The notes under the pieces: generated by a model
What the model was told of the DNA's origin: nothing
Databases searched by the model: none
Seen by the model: only the letters and a program-made list of their open reading frames with translations
From: a virus
DNA length: 45,319 bases
Virus record (IMG/VR): IMGVR_UViG_3300048589_000345
Coordinates: 1-45,319 of that record
Reading direction: 5' to 3' (one strand)
Shown here: piece after piece, positions 1,784-31,547 of the stretch
Layout: each line of letters begins with the position of its first letter
Position numbering within the stretch: the first letter of the stretch is position 1
Translations under genes and position numbers: made by a program

Positions 1784-4393
1784 ATGGCGACTATCAGCAC
1801 CAGCCAGACCTTCGACAGCGCGGCGCGCACGGCGGGCGAGGCGTTCACCATCACCTCCGGGGCGGTGTTCACCATCGACTCGGACACGCGCGATGGCAAG
1901 AACGCCGCCGCCGCGCGGGCCGGCTCGATGAGTTCGTTCACCATGACCGCCGCCTCGGGCGGGCAGGTGCTCGTGGATGGCACGAAGGTTTGGCTGATTG
2001 CCTACGACGGGCGCATCGGCACGCCGAACGTCCCGGCGCTCGGCACCATCATCCAGGGGGTGACCTCCGGCGCGTATGGCGAGCTGATGAACTGCACGTC
2101 GGCGATCAACGCCGTGCCGACAGCCGCCGGTGCCGCGATGCCGGCCACCGGCTACTTCAAGCTCAAGAGCGTCACCGGCACGTTTCAGGACAACGAGACA
2201 CTGGAGATTCAGGGGTCTACCGACCTGTGCCTCGCCAACGGCATCGGGGCACGCGGCTGGATCGAAGTCGTCATGGACGATGCGGCGACCCATACCATCG
2301 GCCGCGCGCAGACTTACAAGATCACCGGCGACTGGTACGTGTCGGAAACCGTCGGCTCTGGCTCCGCGCACCAGCAGGTGCAGTTTCCCAACTATGGTGG
2401 CGCGAATTTCTTCCTGCCGGGCTGCTGGGTGGACGAGGCCGCCGACGGCAACTGGGAGTTCTGGCCGGCGTGCATCACCGGCACCGGCACCTTCTGGTCG
2501 GCGGCAAACATGCTGGCCGAGACGAAGAACAAGTTCTGCGAGTGCCTGGGCGGCGGCATCATCCGCTTTGGCGGCAACGGCACGACCGCATGGGGCAAGA
2601 TCCCGACGGCCGGCGCGAAGTTCCGCATCCCGAACGTCCTGCTGAAGTCCGCAGCCACGGCTTCCCGCGCCTCGGACTCTGTTCCGCACGCGACCACGAC
2701 AAGCCGCCCTGATTTTGCGATGACGAATGCCGGGTCCATCGACATTGATGGGGCCATCGGCCACTGGAACATCGTCTCCAGCCAAGCGTATTCCGTGAAG
2801 CTGAAGCGATTGGCGTTGTTCGACATATACAACATCTCTGAGACAGCGGCTCCGCTGGACTTCGACGATTGCCACAACGGCAACTACATCATCGCGCAGG
2901 ATGCTGCTGCCTTTGTGTTGGCGAACAACTACGCCGGCGGAACAATCGCCAATTGCAAGTTCGGTCGGACGGGGACGATCGCCTCGGGGGACTATGGGAC
3001 GAGCGTTAGCTTCTGCAACAACATCACGTTCAGCGGGTGCCACTTTCAGGGGCGCACGCTGCGTACCAACGCCGCTGGCTACACGTCCTACTTCGCATAC
3101 TGCGCCGGGCTGATATTCAATGACTGCGTGACGGTGGGGAGCGGCACGTACATCTTCACTTGCACCAACACGACGATCAACGACCACCAGTACGCTGACA
3201 ACTACGCCGGCATCTCGAGCGTCACGAACGCCCCACTGGGCGCTCTGATCCTGACCAACTCGAATGGCGTCCTGATCGACGGGTTCTCGTGGTACACATC
3301 GACCGCGAACCAGCACCCGGATACGTGCATCGTCTACACGTCGTTCACCCAGAATCTGAAGGTGCGCAACATCGGCGCCTTCGCGTCCAAGCTCTCGGCC
3401 GGCTCGTCGAACGCCATGCTGTATTTCTGCAACGACGCGGGCAACTCCTACAATCTGGAGTTCAAGCGCATCTACATGGACTTGATCGCGACGACGTTCT
3501 TCAACTGCGTCAACTCGACCAAGAAGGTGCAGATCGCCAACTGCGAGGGCAACGTCACGGCGTACAAGGCGCTGGCCGCCGGCGCGTTGGACATGGAGGT
3601 CAAGAACTGCGGGCTGCTCGGCACCGGGTTTGGCATCGTGCCGGCGTCGCTGCTCTCGATCTACGGCTCGATGTTCGCGCACATCTTCACGTCCTCGACC
3701 GCCGGGCGGCTGCAGTGGCTGTTCAACGAGGACTCGGCGGCGAACTCGGCCTACGTCACGAAGTCGTTCAGCACATCATCAACCGGCACGTCGGGATTCA
3801 ACTCCGGCGGCGGTGTAGCGCTCATCAACTCCGGCGATTACATCATCTGCGAGTTCCCTTGGACGATCATCGGTGTCGACAGCTTCAACTCCGGCGCCGT
3901 CACGGTCACGACCTCGACCAACATGACGACCGAGTACGCCATAGACACGGGTTCGGGGTACGGCGCCTGGACGACGTTCAACTCGACCAATTTGTCTGCG
4001 GAGACGGTGGACGAAGTGGCGGGCTTTCGCATCAAGCTGCGGATCACGGCCAACGCCACCAACGCATCGAACCTCGTCACGCGCGTATCGTGTCTGACGG
4101 ACAGCAACTCGGTCGCACAGGCGCTGCAGTATCCGCTCGACCTTGCTACGGTCAGCATGACGGGGTTGGCGACTGGCAGCCGGGTGAAGGCGACCAAGGT
4201 TTCCGATAGCACCCTGCTTTTCAACGGGCCGGAATCTGGCGGGGCCATCAGCTTCGAGACGGATTACATCGGCGCCATCGCGTTGGAAGCGCGCAAGGCG
4301 TCCGCCGCGCCGTTCTACAAGCCCTTCGTCACGCAGGTGACGACGGTCGCCAATACCACCGCTTCGGCGGTTGCCCTGCAGCAGCTCGACTGA
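1784..4393 (+). CDS. large structural protein, probable fibre/spike with beta-helix-like region
   Basis: An 869-residue protein. The N-terminal ~290 residues are Gly/Ala/Thr-rich. Residues ~300-640 contain many short Asn/Cys/Gly turns spaced by hydrophobic strands (for example repeated N-C or F-N-x-C patterns), a look common in right-handed parallel beta-helix spikes. The C-terminal ~200 residues look like beta-sandwich. It has more cysteines than most virion proteins here. It follows the 563-aa structural protein by 11 bases and precedes a small gene by one base. I infer a receptor-binding or depolymerase-type appendage; no catalytic residues could be assigned. Confidence 0.5.
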   Translation: MATISTSQTFDSAARTAGEAFTITSGAVFTIDSDTRDGKNAAAARAGSMSSFTMTAASGGQVLVDGTKVWLIAYDGRIGTPNVPALGTIIQGVTSGAYGELMNCTSAINAVPTAAGAAMPATGYFKLKSVTGTFQDNETLEIQGSTDLCLANGIGARGWIEVVMDDAATHTIGRAQTYKITGDWYVSETVGSGSAHQQVQFPNYGGANFFLPGCWVDEAADGNWEFWPACITGTGTFWSAANMLAETKNKFCECLGGGIIRFGGNGTTAWGKIPTAGAKFRIPNVLLKSAATASRASDSVPHATTTSRPDFAMTNAGSIDIDGAIGHWNIVSSQAYSVKLKRLALFDIYNISETAAPLDFDDCHNGNYIIAQDAAAFVLANNYAGGTIANCKFGRTGTIASGDYGTSVSFCNNITFSGCHFQGRTLRTNAAGYTSYFAYCAGLIFNDCVTVGSGTYIFTCTNTTINDHQYADNYAGISSVTNAPLGALILTNSNGVLIDGFSWYTSTANQHPDTCIVYTSFTQNLKVRNIGAFASKLSAGSSNAMLYFCNDAGNSYNLEFKRIYMDLIATTFFNCVNSTKKVQIANCEGNVTAYKALAAGALDMEVKNCGLLGTGFGIVPASLLSIYGSMFAHIFTSSTAGRLQWLFNEDSAANSAYVTKSFSTSSTGTSGFNSGGGVALINSGDYIICEFPWTIIGVDSFNSGAVTVTTSTNMTTEYAIDTGSGYGAWTTFNSTNLSAETVDEVAGFRIKLRITANATNASNLVTRVSCLTDSNSVAQALQYPLDLATVSMTGLATGSRVKATKVSDSTLLFNGPESGGAISFETDYIGAIALEARKASAAPFYKPFVTQVTTVANTTASAVALQQLD

Positions 4394-7686: not shown

Positions 7687-8052
7687 ATGGCAAACAACTA
7701 CGTACAGCCCGGCGAAGTGATCGACTGGACCAACGGCGGATCGGACGTAACGGCCGGCGCCGTGGTGCGCATCGGCAAGATCCTCGGCGTTGCCCTGGTC
7801 GACATCGCCGGAAGTGCCACGGGATCGGTGCAGATCACCGGCGTCTTCGAGGTGCCCAAGGTCTCCGGCGCCGTGATCGCGCAGGGCGAGAACCTCACCT
7901 GGGACGCCTCGGCCGCCGCGTTCGACGACAACGCCGCCACGCCCGCCACGGGTGACGTGACCGGCGCGCCCGCGATCGCGTGGGAAGCGGCCGGCAACGG
8001 CGTCACCTCGTTCATGGTCAAGTTCACGGGCGTGCCGGGCACGGTGACCTGA
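7687..8052 (+). CDS. DUF2190-type capsid cement/decoration protein
   Basis: The product is 121 residues. The pattern near the start (VQPGEVIDWTN...VTAGAVVRIGKILGVA) and the later G-V-F-E-V-P-K and ENLTWDAS segments match the DUF2190 capsid cement family, small beta-barrel proteins that bind the outer head surface and stabilise the shell. Length is typical. It has a GGGAG ribosome-binding site (7675-7679) and lies directly after the capsid gene, the usual place. Its stop overlaps the next start. Confidence 0.75.
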   Translation: MANNYVQPGEVIDWTNGGSDVTAGAVVRIGKILGVALVDIAGSATGSVQITGVFEVPKVSGAVIAQGENLTWDASAAAFDDNAATPATGDVTGAPAIAWEAAGNGVTSFMVKFTGVPGTVT

Positions 8053-8357
8053 TGAGCTTTCGCGCCGCTGCGGATGCCGCGGCCACCGCCTGCCTGCGGC
8101 GGCTCGGCGAGGGCTCGGCCACGTACCAGCATGCCAGCGGCGCCGCGGTGGAGGTCGATGCCATGCTCGAAGAGGGCGCCGAAGTGCCCGACGCCTCCGG
8201 GCAGTACGTGGAGCGCACACGCGCGCTGTCCGTGCGCCGTGCCGAGCTGGCGCAGGCGGCGGTGGCGGGTGACCAGGTCACCGTGCTCGGCCAGCGCTAT
8301 CGCGTGCAGCGCGTGCTGGCCGATGACGGCCTGGTCGTGCGCCTCGCGGTGGCCTGA
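8052..8357 (+). CDS. head-tail joining protein (lambda FII-like)
   Basis: The product is 101 residues from the ATG at 8052, which overlaps the preceding stop as TGATG. The N-terminal helix is followed by a small beta-barrel-like domain (VLGQRYRVQRVLADDGLVVRLAVA at the end), resembling phage head-tail attachment proteins of the gpFII type that cap the connector and bind the tail. Its position between the cement gene and the tail terminator supports this. The assignment rests on size, fold impression and order. Confidence 0.6.
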   Translation: MSFRAAADAAATACLRRLGEGSATYQHASGAAVEVDAMLEEGAEVPDASGQYVERTRALSVRRAELAQAAVAGDQVTVLGQRYRVQRVLADDGLVVRLAVA

Positions 8358-8359
8358 GC

Positions 8360-8809
8360 ATGGGCTTCCTGGATCCGGGCCCGTTGATCGTGATGCGGTT
8401 GCGCGAGCGGTTCGCTGCCGCCGGCCTCACGGCGAGCGTGGGCACCGCGGTGGATGGCGGCGCGATCGTCGAGACGCCGCAAACCGAGCCCGCGGCCTAC
8501 GTGATTTTCGATGGCTACGAGCCCGCGCAGGAAGTCGGCTCCGGCCTGGTGCAGCAGATCGCGCAGCGCTGGGCGGTGATCGTCAAGCAGCGGCTCGTGA
8601 GCGGACTGAATCTCGACGACGGCGCGCCGGCCGCTGCCGACGCCGCGCCGGTCATCGATGCCGTGCTCGAAGCACTCTGCGGGTGGCGCCCCGGCACGGG
8701 ATTCGACCAGCTGCGCATGGCCGAGGGGTCCGGCCCGGCGTACTCCTCGGGGTACGCGTACTACTCGCTGTTTTTCACCACGCGCACCGTCGTTCGCGGC
8801 GTGCCCTGA
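8360..8809 (+). CDS. tail terminator protein
   Basis: The product is 149 residues, of the size and alpha/beta composition of phage tail terminators (Gp37/lambda U-like), which form the ring ending the tail tube and joining it to the head. The N-terminal helix (LIVMRLRERFAAAGL) is followed by strands and ends in a strand-rich YYSLFFTTRTVV. It sits directly upstream of the tail tube gene, as in most siphoviruses. The start follows the upstream stop by two bases. Confidence 0.65.
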   Translation: MGFLDPGPLIVMRLRERFAAAGLTASVGTAVDGGAIVETPQTEPAAYVIFDGYEPAQEVGSGLVQQIAQRWAVIVKQRLVSGLNLDDGAPAAADAAPVIDAVLEALCGWRPGTGFDQLRMAEGSGPAYSSGYAYYSLFFTTRTVVRGVP

Positions 8810-8824
8810 TCAGGAGATAATCGC

Positions 8825-9751
8825 ATGACGGACTACAGCTACATCGGCGTCGGCAAGATCCACGCCCGGATCAAGGACTCCGACGGGCCCCTGGCGTTCG
8901 TCGGCAACTGCAGCGCGCTGCGCCTGGCGATCAGCGAAGACAAGAAGCAGCTCAAGGACTACACGCAGGTCGGTGGCGGCAACTACAACGAAGTGCGCCG
9001 CATCGCCTCGTGCGAGTTCAACATGACCGTGCACGATCTCAGCGCCGCCAACCTGGCGCGCGCCGTGTTCGGCGACACCAACGCCATTACCGCGGGCAGC
9101 GTGACGGACGAGAACGTCGGCGCCGCCTATGCAGGCGGCCTGAGCGTGACGGACTACCCGATCAATACCGCCTCGAGCGTGAGCGTCGAGCATGCGCAGA
9201 ACGCCGCCACCGCGCGCGCCAACAGCACCGCCTACGATGTCGACGACTACTACCTGCCGGCCGCGCCGAACGGCTATGTGTACAAGTGCACCATCGCGGG
9301 CACCAGCGCCGGCTCGCCGCCGAGCTTCGGCACCACCGTTGGTGGCACCACCGTGGATGGCACGGCAACCTTCCGCAACGTGGGCAAGGCGCTGCTGGTC
9401 GTCACGACCGACTACGACGTGAGCGCCGGCGGCATCACGCTGACCGCCGCGCCCGCGCTGTATGACGGCGAGGAGCTGGTGGTCACCTACACCAAGCTCG
9501 CCTCGCACGCGATCGAGTCGCTGCTGAACGCCTCGCAGGAATACGAGTTCTTCTTCGACGGCCTCAACGAGGCGCGAAGCGGCAAGCCCACCCTGGTGCA
9601 CCTGTACCGCGTGAAGCTCGGCGCGACCGATGGCCTGGACCTGATCGGCGAGGATTACTACGCCGGTGTGCAGGCGGGCGAGGTGCTGAAGGACACCAGC
9701 AAGAACGGCACCACGGTGAGCCAGTACTTCAAGACCACCATCGCCGACTGA
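8825..9751 (+). CDS. major tail tube protein with an inserted beta-module
   Basis: The product is 308 residues with the usual tube-protein ends: an N-terminal GVGKI.AR..DSD..L.FVGN segment and a C-terminal EDYYAGVQAGEVLKD-type strand. Residues ~129-187 (starting ARANSTAYDVDDYYLP) match a small Gly/Thr/Pro-rich module (Y-x(n)-G-Y-x-Y-x-C-T-x-AGT, P-P-x-F, G-x-T-V-D-G-T) met in many phage tail and fibre proteins. It probably decorates the tube surface. A good ribosome-binding site (AGGAG, 8812-8816) precedes the ATG. It polymerises to form the tail tube around the tape measure. Confidence 0.8.
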   Translation: MTDYSYIGVGKIHARIKDSDGPLAFVGNCSALRLAISEDKKQLKDYTQVGGGNYNEVRRIASCEFNMTVHDLSAANLARAVFGDTNAITAGSVTDENVGAAYAGGLSVTDYPINTASSVSVEHAQNAATARANSTAYDVDDYYLPAAPNGYVYKCTIAGTSAGSPPSFGTTVGGTTVDGTATFRNVGKALLVVTTDYDVSAGGITLTAAPALYDGEELVVTYTKLASHAIESLLNASQEYEFFFDGLNEARSGKPTLVHLYRVKLGATDGLDLIGEDYYAGVQAGEVLKDTSKNGTTVSQYFKTTIAD

Positions 9752-28690: not shown

Positions 28691-28719
28691 AGTTTAGGCA
28701 ATGCCTACGCTCTTAGCAA
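28691..28719 (-). promoter_or_regulatory. candidate leftward early promoter (pL)
   Basis: On the minus strand TTGCTA (28719-28714), a 17-base spacer and TAAACT (28696-28691). The operator palindrome 28695-28707 covers the spacer and -10, so repressor binding would block it. Each hexamer matches consensus at four of six positions. Confidence 0.5.
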
Positions 28720-28732
28720 TAGGCAATGCCTA
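28695..28732. promoter_or_regulatory. OL-type operators: two TAGGCAATGCCTA palindromes
   Basis: Perfect 13-bp palindromes at 28695-28707 and 28720-28732, 25 bp centre to centre. The same palindrome occurs with the same 25-bp spacing between the cI and cro-like genes (31247, 31272). They are therefore the second operator cluster of the lysogeny switch. Confidence 0.85.
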
Positions 28733-28837: not shown

Positions 28838-28852
28838 TAACGGAATCCGTTA
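28838..28852. promoter_or_regulatory. probable MqsA operator upstream of mqsR
   Basis: TAACGGAATCCGTTA is a perfect 15-bp palindrome 12 bases before the mqsR start. It keeps the TAAC-N7-GTTA frame of the Escherichia coli mqsRA operators but with a different centre. A possible promoter (TTGATG 28828-28833, 17 bases, TAGTCT 28851-28856) overlaps it, giving autorepression. Confidence 0.6.
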
Positions 28853-28864
28853 GTCTTTGCGCCC

Positions 28865-29167
28865 ATGGAAAAGCGCCGCGCTCACTACGACTTGGAGGCA
28901 GTTAAGGCAGCAGTTGCCGAGCGCGGGCTCGATGCGTTCACCGCCACGGCGTTGCGGGGTATCGGTGAAATGGGGTTGAGCGGTGTTCAGGGCGTTGCGG
29001 TGTTGCTGGGTTTGCAACGGGCCATGCTCTACAAGTCGATGACCACAAATGCGGATCACCGAGTGTGGCAAGACGTGTATCACGCGCCGTGCCCCAACGG
29101 CAAAACGGCCTACATCAAGGTGACGTTGCGAGATGGCGCCGTAGTGATCCAGTTCAAGGAGTTGTGA
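28865..29167 (+). CDS. mqsR: MqsR-family mRNA interferase toxin
   Basis: The product is 100 residues, the length of E. coli MqsR (98). It shares the family core YKSMTT-x2-DH-x2-WQDVY and the closing IKVT...VVIQFKE. The residues reported as catalytic in MqsR (Lys56, Gln68, Tyr81) have counterparts here at Lys57, Gln69 and Tyr83. MqsR is a RelE-fold ribonuclease that cuts mRNA, preferentially at GCU. The gene is first of a two-gene unit with its antitoxin one base downstream. No clear ribosome-binding site precedes the ATG. Confidence 0.85.
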   Translation: MEKRRAHYDLEAVKAAVAERGLDAFTATALRGIGEMGLSGVQGVAVLLGLQRAMLYKSMTTNADHRVWQDVYHAPCPNGKTAYIKVTLRDGAVVIQFKEL

Positions 29168-29168
29168 A

Positions 29169-29630
29169 ATGAGCAAGCGCAAACGGTATTGCCTGCAGTG
29201 TGATGACGGAACGGTGCTCGTGCATGGCGCCCGCGATATGACCGCGGCGGTCGACGGGGTGGCGGTCGTGGTGGAGCAGGTGCGTGGATGGCACTGCCCG
29301 GTGTGCGGCGAGTGTGAATTCGACGACGGGGAAGGGAAGCGTTACAGCGCTGCGCTTGACGCGGCACGCGCCCGCGCTGACCTTGAGCGCATCGAGGAGA
29401 TCCGTACCATCCGCAAGCGGCTGCATTTGACGCAGGCGGAGGCGGCCGAGCTGTTCGGCGGCGGTGTCAACGCTTTCTCGGAGTACGAGCGCGGCAAGAC
29501 GCGGCCGCACAAGGCAACCATGGTGCTGTTGCGATTGCTCGGGGAACGGCCGGAGCTTCTGGAAAATGTTCGGCGCACGCAGGTCGGGGCATCGGTCGCG
29601 GGCAAGCGTGCGCGCCGTTCAGCGGCGTGA
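29169..29630 (+). CDS. mqsA: MqsA-family antitoxin / autorepressor
   Basis: The product is 153 residues (E. coli MqsA is 131). The N-terminal zinc domain has Cys8-x2-Cys11 and Cys43-x2-Cys46. The C-terminal HTH (residues ~78-125) reads LTQAEAAELFGGGVNAFSEY followed by ERGKTRPH, the MqsA/YgiT signature. It neutralises MqsR and represses the operon. Asn101 matches the DNA-contacting Asn97 of MqsA, but Arg101 of MqsA is replaced by Glu105. The tail beyond ~137 (VGASVAGKRARRSAA) is extra and basic. An AAGGAG site precedes ATG 29169. Confidence 0.85.
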   Translation: MSKRKRYCLQCDDGTVLVHGARDMTAAVDGVAVVVEQVRGWHCPVCGECEFDDGEGKRYSAALDAARARADLERIEEIRTIRKRLHLTQAEAAELFGGGVNAFSEYERGKTRPHKATMVLLRLLGERPELLENVRRTQVGASVAGKRARRSAA

Positions 29631-29666: not shown

Positions 29667-29685
29667 GAGCGCAACCGGTTGCTCA
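29667..29685. terminator. palindrome between convergent genes
   Basis: GCAACCGGTTGC (29671-29682) is a perfect palindrome within a longer imperfect inverted repeat, between mqsA (plus) and the zinc-ribbon gene (minus). Its location suits a bidirectional transcription stop, but there is no T-run on either side. Confidence 0.35.
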
Positions 29686-29976
29686 CTTGTGGTCCCACCA
29701 TGCGCCAATACGAGAGAAGATGTACATCATCGCCCCGATCAGCGTGATGATGATCCCGAATACTTTTGTGGCACTGCCAGGCTCTCCCACGTTTATCATG
29801 ATAACGCCGGTCAATAGGGCCAGGATGCCAACCACTAGCTGCGCCTTGTAGCGCTTGCCGGTCTGCTCGATCGTCTGAACCGGCGCAGGGGCGGCGATCG
29901 GCGCGCCACACCGCAGGCACGCCGCGGCTTGATCGGAGACCTGTTTACCGCAGTCGGGGCAGTTGATGAGGGCCAT
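29683..29976 (-). CDS. zinc-ribbon membrane protein (lysogeny cassette)
   Basis: The product is 97 residues. The N-terminal zinc ribbon has Cys6-x2-Cys9 and Cys20-x2-Cys23 (NCPDCGKQV...CLRCGAP), a Pro/Ala linker follows, then two transmembrane helices (~46-64 and ~71-90) and a short basic end. Ribosome-binding site AGGAGGTGA is an extended match and the strongest I saw here. The gene follows cI and the secreted-protein gene on the same strand, is less GC-rich than the core genome, and is a candidate superinfection-exclusion or other lysogenic-conversion gene. Confidence 0.65.
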   Translation of the reverse strand: MALINCPDCGKQVSDQAAACLRCGAPIAAPAPVQTIEQTGKRYKAQLVVGILALLTGVIMINVGEPGSATKVFGIIITLIGAMMYIFSRIGAWWDHK

Positions 29977-30040
29977 TTTGCATCACCTCCTGTGCGTAAT
30001 CGTTGCGCTGAGATGTCCGCAGTTACTGCAGCGCAAGTAG

Positions 30041-30487
30041 TTAGAACTTTCGGGCCGTCACCTGTTTAATCGTGCACTTCCCGCTTGCCCTTACCGGAGA
30101 ATTGGTTTCCCGTTTTGTGGCGTCGTTAATGATTGTCATCTGAAAATCGTGGATGACTGACAGGTCGATTCGACTGATTCGATACTGTCGTGTCACGAAG
30201 ACGCCGGTGCCGGCGATGTGTTCGTCGTTTTTGTAGATGACTTCATCCGCAGAAAAAAATCCCGTAGCGTTGAATCCAGTACCGCCTGAATTCATGTGCG
30301 TAACTTGGCCGTTGTTCTCGTCAAGCTTCACCTCGAACGATATGGAGCCTTTAGCCCCTGCAAGCGCGCAGTCTAGGTACACGGGCTCAGCGAGTGAGTT
30401 GGGGGATGCGACCAACAGCAATGTCATTGATTCAGCAAATAATATGCTTGCGGTGCCGCGTGAAGTCATGCGGCATGATCCGATCAT
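30041..30487 (-). CDS. secreted/periplasmic protein encoded directly behind cI
   Basis: The product is 148 residues; its ATG (30487) overlaps the cI stop as ATGA, and an alternative ATG is at 30469. The N-terminus has basic residues, a hydrophobic core (MTLLLVASPNSLA) and a plausible signal-peptidase site before EP. The mature part is beta-rich with two cysteines (Cys40 and one near residue 138) able to form a disulfide. The segment is AT-richer than the core genome. Coupling to cI predicts expression in the lysogen, comparable to lambda rexAB; it may alter the cell envelope. No family was recognised. Confidence 0.6.
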   Translation of the reverse strand: MIGSCRMTSRGTASILFAESMTLLLVASPNSLAEPVYLDCALAGAKGSISFEVKLDENNGQVTHMNSGGTGFNATGFFSADEVIYKNDEHIAGTGVFVTRQYRISRIDLSVIHDFQMTIINDATKRETNSPVRASGKCTIKQVTARKF

Positions 30488-31218
30488 CGCGATACTCCAT
30501 TCATGACGTCGAATTCACCTTTCACCACTACGCCGCATATATGGAGTTCGCGAGGATCATCGACTTTCACCGGGTCAAATTTCGGATTGAGCGGCAGCAG
30601 GTATACGGCGCCATCGTCGTAGCTCAGGCGCTTGAACATGGCGTCGCCGGCGAGGCCGATCTTCGCGATCACATAGCTGCCGTGGACGGGGTGGCAGTCC
30701 GGATCCACGATCACGATGACGCCATCAGGAAAGCTCGGGAATCCGGTGGGGTTCGTCATGCTGTCGCCGCGCACGCGCAAGGCAAAGGCGCGGCTGCCGA
30801 CGCGCGCGGTCGTCTCGATCCAGTCATCGGCTACGCCTGGCGGGAACGGGTCGCTTGCTTCACACCACTCTCCAGCGCTGACTTGGGAGATCAACGGCAC
30901 CTTGCCGCGTACAGGCGGCCCAGGCTCGACGTTGCTGTCTCTCGACCCTGATTCATCGTTCGGCGGCGATCCCGCTGGCAACTGGGCTGGCCATTCGGTC
31001 AGCCCCCAGTGTTCCGGCCCTGCCACGTCCGAGAAATATCGCCAAAGCTCTGGCAGCTTGTCCTTCGAGATCGCCCCGGTCTTGATCCAGCCGTGAACGG
31101 ACGGGGCCTTCACCCCGAAATGCCGCGCCACATCGGCGATCGATTGAATTGCCCCGGACTCGATCTTGCGTTCGATCGCGGTCTCAATCGCGCGGCCTAG
31201 TTCATGTTTGTTAAGCAT
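30484..31218 (-). CDS. cI: CI-like repressor, S24/LexA-type
   Basis: The product is 244 residues. The N-terminal HTH (~24-47: QSIADVARHFGVKAPSVHGW) is followed by a linker with P-x-P/Ser-rich sequence and a LexA/UmuD-type peptidase domain: self-cleavage site Ala115-Gly116 in QVSAGEW, nucleophile Ser153 in RGDSM, Lys186 in VIAKIG. It should maintain lysogeny by binding the TAGGCAATGCCTA operators and be inactivated by RecA-stimulated self-cleavage. The imperfect operator 31212-31224 overlaps its ATG (31218), which suggests autorepression. Confidence 0.9.
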   Translation of the reverse strand: MLNKHELGRAIETAIERKIESGAIQSIADVARHFGVKAPSVHGWIKTGAISKDKLPELWRYFSDVAGPEHWGLTEWPAQLPAGSPPNDESGSRDSNVEPGPPVRGKVPLISQVSAGEWCEASDPFPPGVADDWIETTARVGSRAFALRVRGDSMTNPTGFPSFPDGVIVIVDPDCHPVHGSYVIAKIGLAGDAMFKRLSYDDGAVYLLPLNPKFDPVKVDDPRELHICGVVVKGEFDVMNGVSR

Positions 31219-31284
31219 TGCCTAAGATTCGCCCGATTGTGGCATGTAGGCAATGCCTATTGACGACTCGCTAGGCAATGCCTA
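31212..31284. promoter_or_regulatory. OR-type operator cluster between cI and cro-like gene
   Basis: Perfect TAGGCAATGCCTA at 31247-31259 and 31272-31284 (centres 25 bp apart) and an imperfect copy TAAGCATTGCCTA at 31212-31224 overlapping the cI start. The imperfect site corresponds in position to a lambda OR3-like autoregulatory site; the other two cover the rightward promoter. Confidence 0.85.
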
Positions 31285-31288
31285 CAGT
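31260..31288 (+). promoter_or_regulatory. rightward early promoter (pR)
   Basis: TTGACG (31260-31265), a 17-base spacer, and TACAGT (31283-31288). The operator 31272-31284 fills the spacer and touches the -10. The predicted start of transcription (~31295) is next to the ATG of the Cro-like gene at 31296, so the transcript would have almost no leader. Confidence 0.65.
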
Positions 31289-31295
31289 GCGCGGC

Positions 31296-31547
31296 ATGGA
31301 CTCCAATATCTCGCCCATTGACCGCGCCGTCGCACAGCTTGGCAGCCAGCAGAAGCTGGCGGACGCGCTTGGAATTCGGTCGCCATCCATTTCGGAATGG
31401 CGAACTCGGAACCGAGTGCCCGCAGAGCGTTGTGTCGCTGTCGAGAAGGCTACTGGCGGTGCCGTAACCCGCTACGAGCTGCGCCCCGATGTTTTTGGTG
31501 CCGCGCTTGGACAGGCAATCCCGGAATCGGAAGGGGGGGCGGCGTAG
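31296..31547 (+). CDS. Cro/YdaS-like transcriptional regulator
   Basis: The product is 83 residues from ATG 31296; an in-frame upstream start at 31278 would lie inside the operator. The HTH (residues ~8-45: AVAQLGSQQKLADALGIRSP, then SISEWRTRNRVPAERC) is of the YdaS/Cro type common in lambdoid-like switches. It should bind the shared operators and shut down cI expression, favouring lytic growth. It is divergently arranged with cI around three operators. Confidence 0.8.
   Translation: MDSNISPIDRAVAQLGSQQKLADALGIRSPSISEWRTRNRVPAERCVAVEKATGGAVTRYELRPDVFGAALGQAIPESEGGAA

Follow-up and report, generated by a model that had tools for sequence, protein, structure and literature searches.

The interval between the OL and OR operators, behind the repressor gene, is a mosaic hotspot of accessory genes (morons), rexAB and bstA among them, and in lysogens the cI promoter drives genes of this hotspot, bstA in 17 of 17 conditions (PMC8585504, PMC7067206). 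In Pseudomonas putida a RexAB-type system is also located behind a CI-like repressor; its sensor, RexA, binds DNA, and its effector, RexB, is a membrane protein (PMC12894663). Another described phage protein, Spackle of T4, is a periplasmic blocker of tail lysozyme folded as an alpha-helical bundle (PMC7677548).

The window analyzed here is a whole virus record of IMG/VR, 45,319 bases long; as it carries tail, head, terminase, portal and primase genes, we consider it to come from a temperate tailed phage. Its minus strand, read from 31218 to 29683, encodes cI, then a 148-aa protein of exported type, then a 97-aa zinc-ribbon protein. The last two are probably accessory genes expressed in lysogeny, which occupy the rex slot of a lambda-like immunity region, alter the cell envelope and were acquired separately. 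The features of the region are as follows (operators have no strand).

28695..28707: OL-like operator TAGGCAATGCCTA (exact match)
28720..28732: OL-like operator TAGGCAATGCCTA, 25 bp from the one at 28695 (motif search)
28865..29167, plus strand: MqsR-family toxin, convergent to the cassette, a neighbour outside it (PF15723, E 1e-30)
29169..29630, plus strand: MqsA-family antitoxin, a neighbour outside the cassette (PF15731, E 9.7e-35)
29683..29976, minus strand: 97-aa zinc-ribbon (CxxC...CxxC) protein with two transmembrane (TM) segments, predicted as an inner-membrane hairpin with a putatively cytoplasmic ribbon (Zn_Ribbon_1, E 4.8e-5, just below cut-off; hydropathy peaks; full-length relatives)
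29983..29991, minus strand: extended Shine-Dalgarno sequence AGGAGGTGA of the zinc-ribbon gene, with 6 nt between it and the ATG (sequence)
30041..30487, minus strand: exported-type protein of 148 aa, whose signal peptide runs to about A33 and precedes a predicted eight-stranded antiparallel barrel with conserved C40 and C138 (relatives, structure model, fold matches)
30484..30487, minus strand: ATGA overlap of the cI stop with the start of the exported-protein gene (sequence)
30484..31218, minus strand: cI-type repressor with S24 autopeptidase (Peptidase_S24, E 2.2e-23), N-terminal 90 aa resembling RacR (NF049929, E 2.8e-39, below its cut-off)
31212..31224: degenerate operator on the cI start codon (motif search)
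31247..31259: OR-like operator TAGGCAATGCCTA (motif search)
31272..31284: OR-like operator TAGGCAATGCCTA, 25 bp from the one at 31247 (motif search)
31278..31547, plus strand: Cro/YdaS-type regulator, divergent from cI (YdaS_toxin, E 4.3e-24; P22_Cro, E 2.2e-10)

Gene layout and operators behind cI

The open reading frames, their strand and their coordinates were as given in the initial annotation; the span proposed there for the cassette (29683-31218) is correct in its coordinates but takes in cI itself. Judged by their full-length relatives, the exported and zinc-ribbon frames are real genes. The ATG of the first (30487) shares its ATGA with the TGA of cI, which is the 4-base overlap that had been claimed, and GGAG lies 7 nt upstream of it; this coupling suggests co-transcription with cI in lysogens. 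The second gene follows after a gap of 64 bp, and the extended AGGAGGTGA ascribed to it was found at 29991-29983.

The stretch had also been described as AT-richer than the core. This was strongly so for the exported-protein gene, with GC of 0.508 versus 0.671 in the window (0.25% of 447-bp windows have a GC this low), but with 0.599 for the zinc-ribbon gene and 0.614 for cI the difference from the window is mild. The GC3 of the exported-protein gene is 0.597, versus about 0.90-0.92 in the terminase, portal and primase genes; the low GC and GC3 of this gene thus point to separate acquisition. Elsewhere in the window, two long ORFs (81-1772 and 1784-4393, plus strand; 563 and 869 aa) had no match in Pfam, PHROG or NCBIfam.

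The window contains four exact copies of TAGGCAATGCCTA, grouped as pairs spaced 25 bp apart (28695/28720 and 31247/31272); with up to three mismatches allowed, the motif had 17 matches versus 4.5 expected, and none of 100 shuffles reached 17. The layout of the sites is that of OL and OR, and we infer that the repressor binds these putative operators. The two cassette genes lie between cI and the OL-like operators, on the same strand as cI; the OL-OR interval contains cI, the exported-protein gene, the zinc-ribbon gene and a convergent MqsR/MqsA toxin-antitoxin pair. As OL-like and OR-like operators flank both cassette genes behind cI, with five operator-like sites in all, the genes occupy the position of rexAB, in agreement with the initial annotation, and of bstA. 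The switch itself may be of RacR/YdaS type: the Cro-type protein matched YdaS above cut-off, and the match of the cI N-terminus to RacR was below the curated cut-off.

No close relatives of the window cI were found in IMG/VR, and a search by operator pattern for homoimmune phages yielded three loci. Two of them (L015 and L017) have a pair of TAGGCAATGCCTA operators but a different repressor (HTH_3 plus S24), followed after 4 bp by a lipoprotein gene. The L015 repressor has only marginal similarity to the window cI; therefore, shared operator letters do not imply a shared repressor.

The MqsR/MqsA pair (28865-29630, plus strand) is complete, lies within the immunity region and is 52 bp from the cassette; a palindrome, AACGGAATCCGTT, located shortly upstream of mqsR (28839-28851), could be an autoregulatory operator. 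Since a link between the MqsR/MqsA family and inhibition of phages has been described (PMC10783111), any exclusion phenotype of a lysogen would need to be assigned gene by gene.

The exported protein and its relatives

The exported protein had no match in Pfam, NCBIfam or PADLOC, no significant match in PHROG and no match in a PDB sequence search; it appears to represent a small family, apparently undescribed in the libraries used (Pfam, NCBIfam, PHROG). Most of the relatives carry a clear signal peptide. That of the window copy is weak, with a Glu within the hydrophobic stretch and an 11-residue hydropathy peak of 1.93, and its export is presumed. The word 'secreted' in the initial annotation needs this qualification; its description of both products as envelope-directed is supported.

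Profile-guided scans revealed relatives in ten other IMG/VR contigs, seven distinct sequences with 35-40% identity over full length. In all ten contigs the gene has the tail-chaperone region on one side and the tape measure gene on the other, and a zinc-ribbon gene is never adjacent. With the exported-protein gene among late genes in these phage relatives, its expression there might be lytic rather than lysogenic. In most of the ten, the next gene, on the opposite strand, encodes a protein with a TM segment and Mrr_cat (restriction-endonuclease-like); in L004, L009, L012, L018 and L020-L022 this 177-aa protein is encoded convergently with the exported-protein gene before the tape measure, as a recurring two-gene insertion. 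The window also suggests that the tape-measure slot and the repressor slot draw their cargo from one pool of envelope genes.

The family is also carried by two bacterial genomes. One copy, frameshifted, is in a gammaproteobacterial MAG (L002), where the gene (7868-8930) is flanked by near-identical repeats starting gggacggagggattatattttgatcaagttcagtt and resembles a small repeat-bounded cassette; a 340-aa bacterial exported protein has the family domain at its N-terminus. Among genomes sampled across the class the family was present in 1 of 369, and across the phylum in 2 of 398, so at the sensitivity of those searches it is rare in cellular genomes. No relatives were seen among INPHARED phages and PLSDB plasmids; a fragment from the L002 relative gave chance-level matches only.

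The frameshift in L002 and the Glu within the window copy's signal peptide could be taken as marks of passive cargo or of decaying genes with no current function. We consider this quite improbable, as both window frames are intact and have good ribosome sites, and neither the Cys pair nor the core residues have been lost. Indeed, a Cys near the start (PVYLDC) and another near the end (GxC) are retained in all full-length phage copies.

An AlphaFold2 model built from nine sequences had a mean pLDDT of 78, with a core mostly above 90, and eight antiparallel strands. The conserved Cys residues fall in strands 1 and 8 of this model and likely form a disulphide that closes the barrel. Fold matches of middling score were to avidins, lipocalin-like proteins and other eight-stranded barrels; they were generic, with a lowest PDB Foldseek E of 4.9e-3, TM of about 0.4-0.5 and a highest Z near 9.7, and the best matches among viral models were unnamed phage proteins. 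For the predicted barrel, such a match shows shape, not function.

One could speculate that a small exported all-beta protein with Cys in its first and last strands is a phage-borne lysozyme inhibitor of MliC/PliC type, which blocks tail or host lysozyme; MliC sequences also have Cys near their ends, and T4 Spackle provides a precedent for a periplasmic block of tail lysozyme (PMC7677548). This is very unlikely: the protein has no SGxRY-like motif and no Pfam match, and comparison with an MliC alignment by hhalign gave a probability of 0.1%, so that the profile lends kinship with MliC no support. The eight-stranded model had only generic fold matches, and the absence of MliC among the matches listed carries no weight.

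The zinc-ribbon protein and the role of the pair

The second protein has the annotated zinc ribbon, whose two CxxC motifs are C6-x2-C9 and C20-x2-C23; its two hydrophobic peaks begin at residues 45 and 72. Its full-length relatives are at 32-36% identity. One of them, WP_339023791.1 of Aeromonas salmonicida plasmid pASaBE4, is encoded between head-tail genes; another, in the G264 prophage, immediately precedes the tape measure gene on the opposite strand; others lie beside ordinary chromosomal genes. The zinc ribbon by itself is widespread, and a peptide-pattern search of viral contigs confirmed no relatives. PADLOC defence models gave no meaningful match for either cassette protein; the zinc-ribbon protein reached only 13.8 bits, to a restriction-enzyme model.

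The relatives of both genes are therefore found at other insertion points, combined with a non-core composition that is clear for the exported-protein gene and mild for the zinc-ribbon gene. Because exported-protein relatives sit in the tail slot without a zinc-ribbon gene, and a zinc-ribbon relative lies before another tape measure gene, the two, as far as their sequences tell, are independently moving morons and not a conserved two-gene system; the suggestion in the initial annotation that they form one system was not supported.

Phage G370 deserves separate mention. It has an exported-protein relative in the tail slot and, elsewhere (L028:5914-7975), an HTH_3-type repressor gene with a divergent Cro-like gene, followed by an Arc-like gene and a gene for a one-TM zinc-ribbon protein. 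This protein and that of the window are alike only in the first 25 residues.

A barrel that intercepts DNA entry or the tail muramidase in the periplasm, with the membrane protein as its anchor or signalling partner, would make a single superinfection-exclusion system of the two genes. The tight linkage of the genes to cI and to each other, the envelope direction of both products, a slot known for rexAB and bstA (PMC8585504) and the presence of both kinds of gene in G370, the zinc-ribbon one behind its own repressor, speak for it. We nevertheless hold it unlikely: the pair is not conserved (none of the 10 other contigs has the zinc-ribbon gene adjacent), five of six whole records searched lacked any zinc-ribbon match, and the likeness in the sixth case, G370, is confined to the 25-residue ribbon.

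For the two as separate accessory genes, we propose the following. In a lysogen, repressor on the operators would silence the lytic promoters, and the cI maintenance promoter would transcribe both genes. The first product would be exported and fold in the periplasm as a disulphide-closed eight-stranded barrel; the second would be an inner-membrane two-helix hairpin with its zinc ribbon on the cytoplasmic side. Both would most likely alter the lysogen envelope, and the barrel, in a last step that is conjecture and that we favour, may bind a ligand or an incoming tail component. The likeliest single purpose, by analogy with known occupants of the slot, is hindering the entry or growth of competing phages, and superinfection exclusion is plausible.

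Roles in host fitness are almost as plausible. Taken as an explanation of its own, lysogenic conversion for envelope stress, small-ligand binding or tolerance of lysozyme or antibiotics, rather than exclusion, is a possible though tentative reading. Avidins and lipocalin-type proteins, the fold neighbours, have ligand-binding shapes, the family domain occurs in bacterial genes outside recognisable prophages, and zinc-ribbon relatives lie by ordinary chromosomal genes; on the other hand, the fold match is generic and most copies of the exported family were found in phage gene slots.

The moron reading draws on the operators, gene order, ATGA, Shine-Dalgarno sites, low GC and GC3, relatives that occur as insertions, the signal peptides of most exported-protein relatives, the barrel model, the literature on the hotspot, and other phages (BPP-1, L015 and L017) whose envelope proteins are encoded in this slot. 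Against it count the lack of a sigma-70-like promoter for cI in a consensus search, the weak signal peptide of the window copy and the late-gene setting of the exported-protein gene in its phage relatives.

The rex slot in other phages and known systems

In a small panel of phages, picked mostly by repressor similarity, Providencia PSTNGR2lys has small TM proteins behind the repressor, PSA04 a gene that reads as a glycosyltransferase, and ZF40 soluble proteins. No hydrophobic peak was present in the genes examined behind the ZF40 and PSA04 repressors, which counts against the envelope reading; envelope-directed genes are common in the rex slot but not the rule. The slot is a productive place for finding lysogen-expressed genes of phage protection.

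Like rexAB of lambda and of P. putida, the cassette has two same-strand genes behind cI in the immunity region, one of them for a membrane protein. Unlike RexA and RexB, its products are an exported barrel and a zinc-ribbon hairpin and have no sequence match to them: Pfam, NCBIfam and PHROGs all failed to give a Rex match, the barrel takes the place of a RexA-like DNA-binding protein, and a zinc ribbon with two TM peaks that of a RexB-like multi-TM effector. The bstA gene of prophage BTP1 likewise lies behind the repressor as an accessory gene and shares a transcript with cI in lysogens (PMC8585504, PMC7067206), but BstA is a single abortive-infection protein that acts at phage DNA replication sites, and no similarity to the cassette proteins was found.

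The 4-base overlap has a counterpart in Bordetella phage BPP-1, where bbp33, a small envelope-directed gene, overlaps an S24 repressor gene in the same way; its product, with two hydrophobic peaks, is unrelated to the window proteins. The lipoprotein gene behind the S24 repressor of L015 and L017 is envelope-directed as well, again with an unrelated product. The zinc-ribbon protein shares its full-length architecture with WP_339023791.1, whose gene is inserted among head-tail genes of pASaBE4, whereas that of the window stands behind the repressor.

Spackle and the exported protein are both small, exported, phage-borne and endowed with a Cys pair, but Spackle is alpha-helical and the exported protein all-beta; MliC/PliC inhibitors are all-beta too, without a profile match between them and the exported protein. 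One could further speculate that phages encode a new family of proteins that block entry in the periplasm, with the barrel as its first recognised member, produced constitutively in lysogens through translational coupling to cI and helped by the zinc-ribbon hairpin; we give this little credence. Rex-slot moron cassettes are a known kind, and the exported-protein family appears new in the libraries used; the window adds to that kind a family with a predicted fold and defined relatives, which makes its role directly testable.
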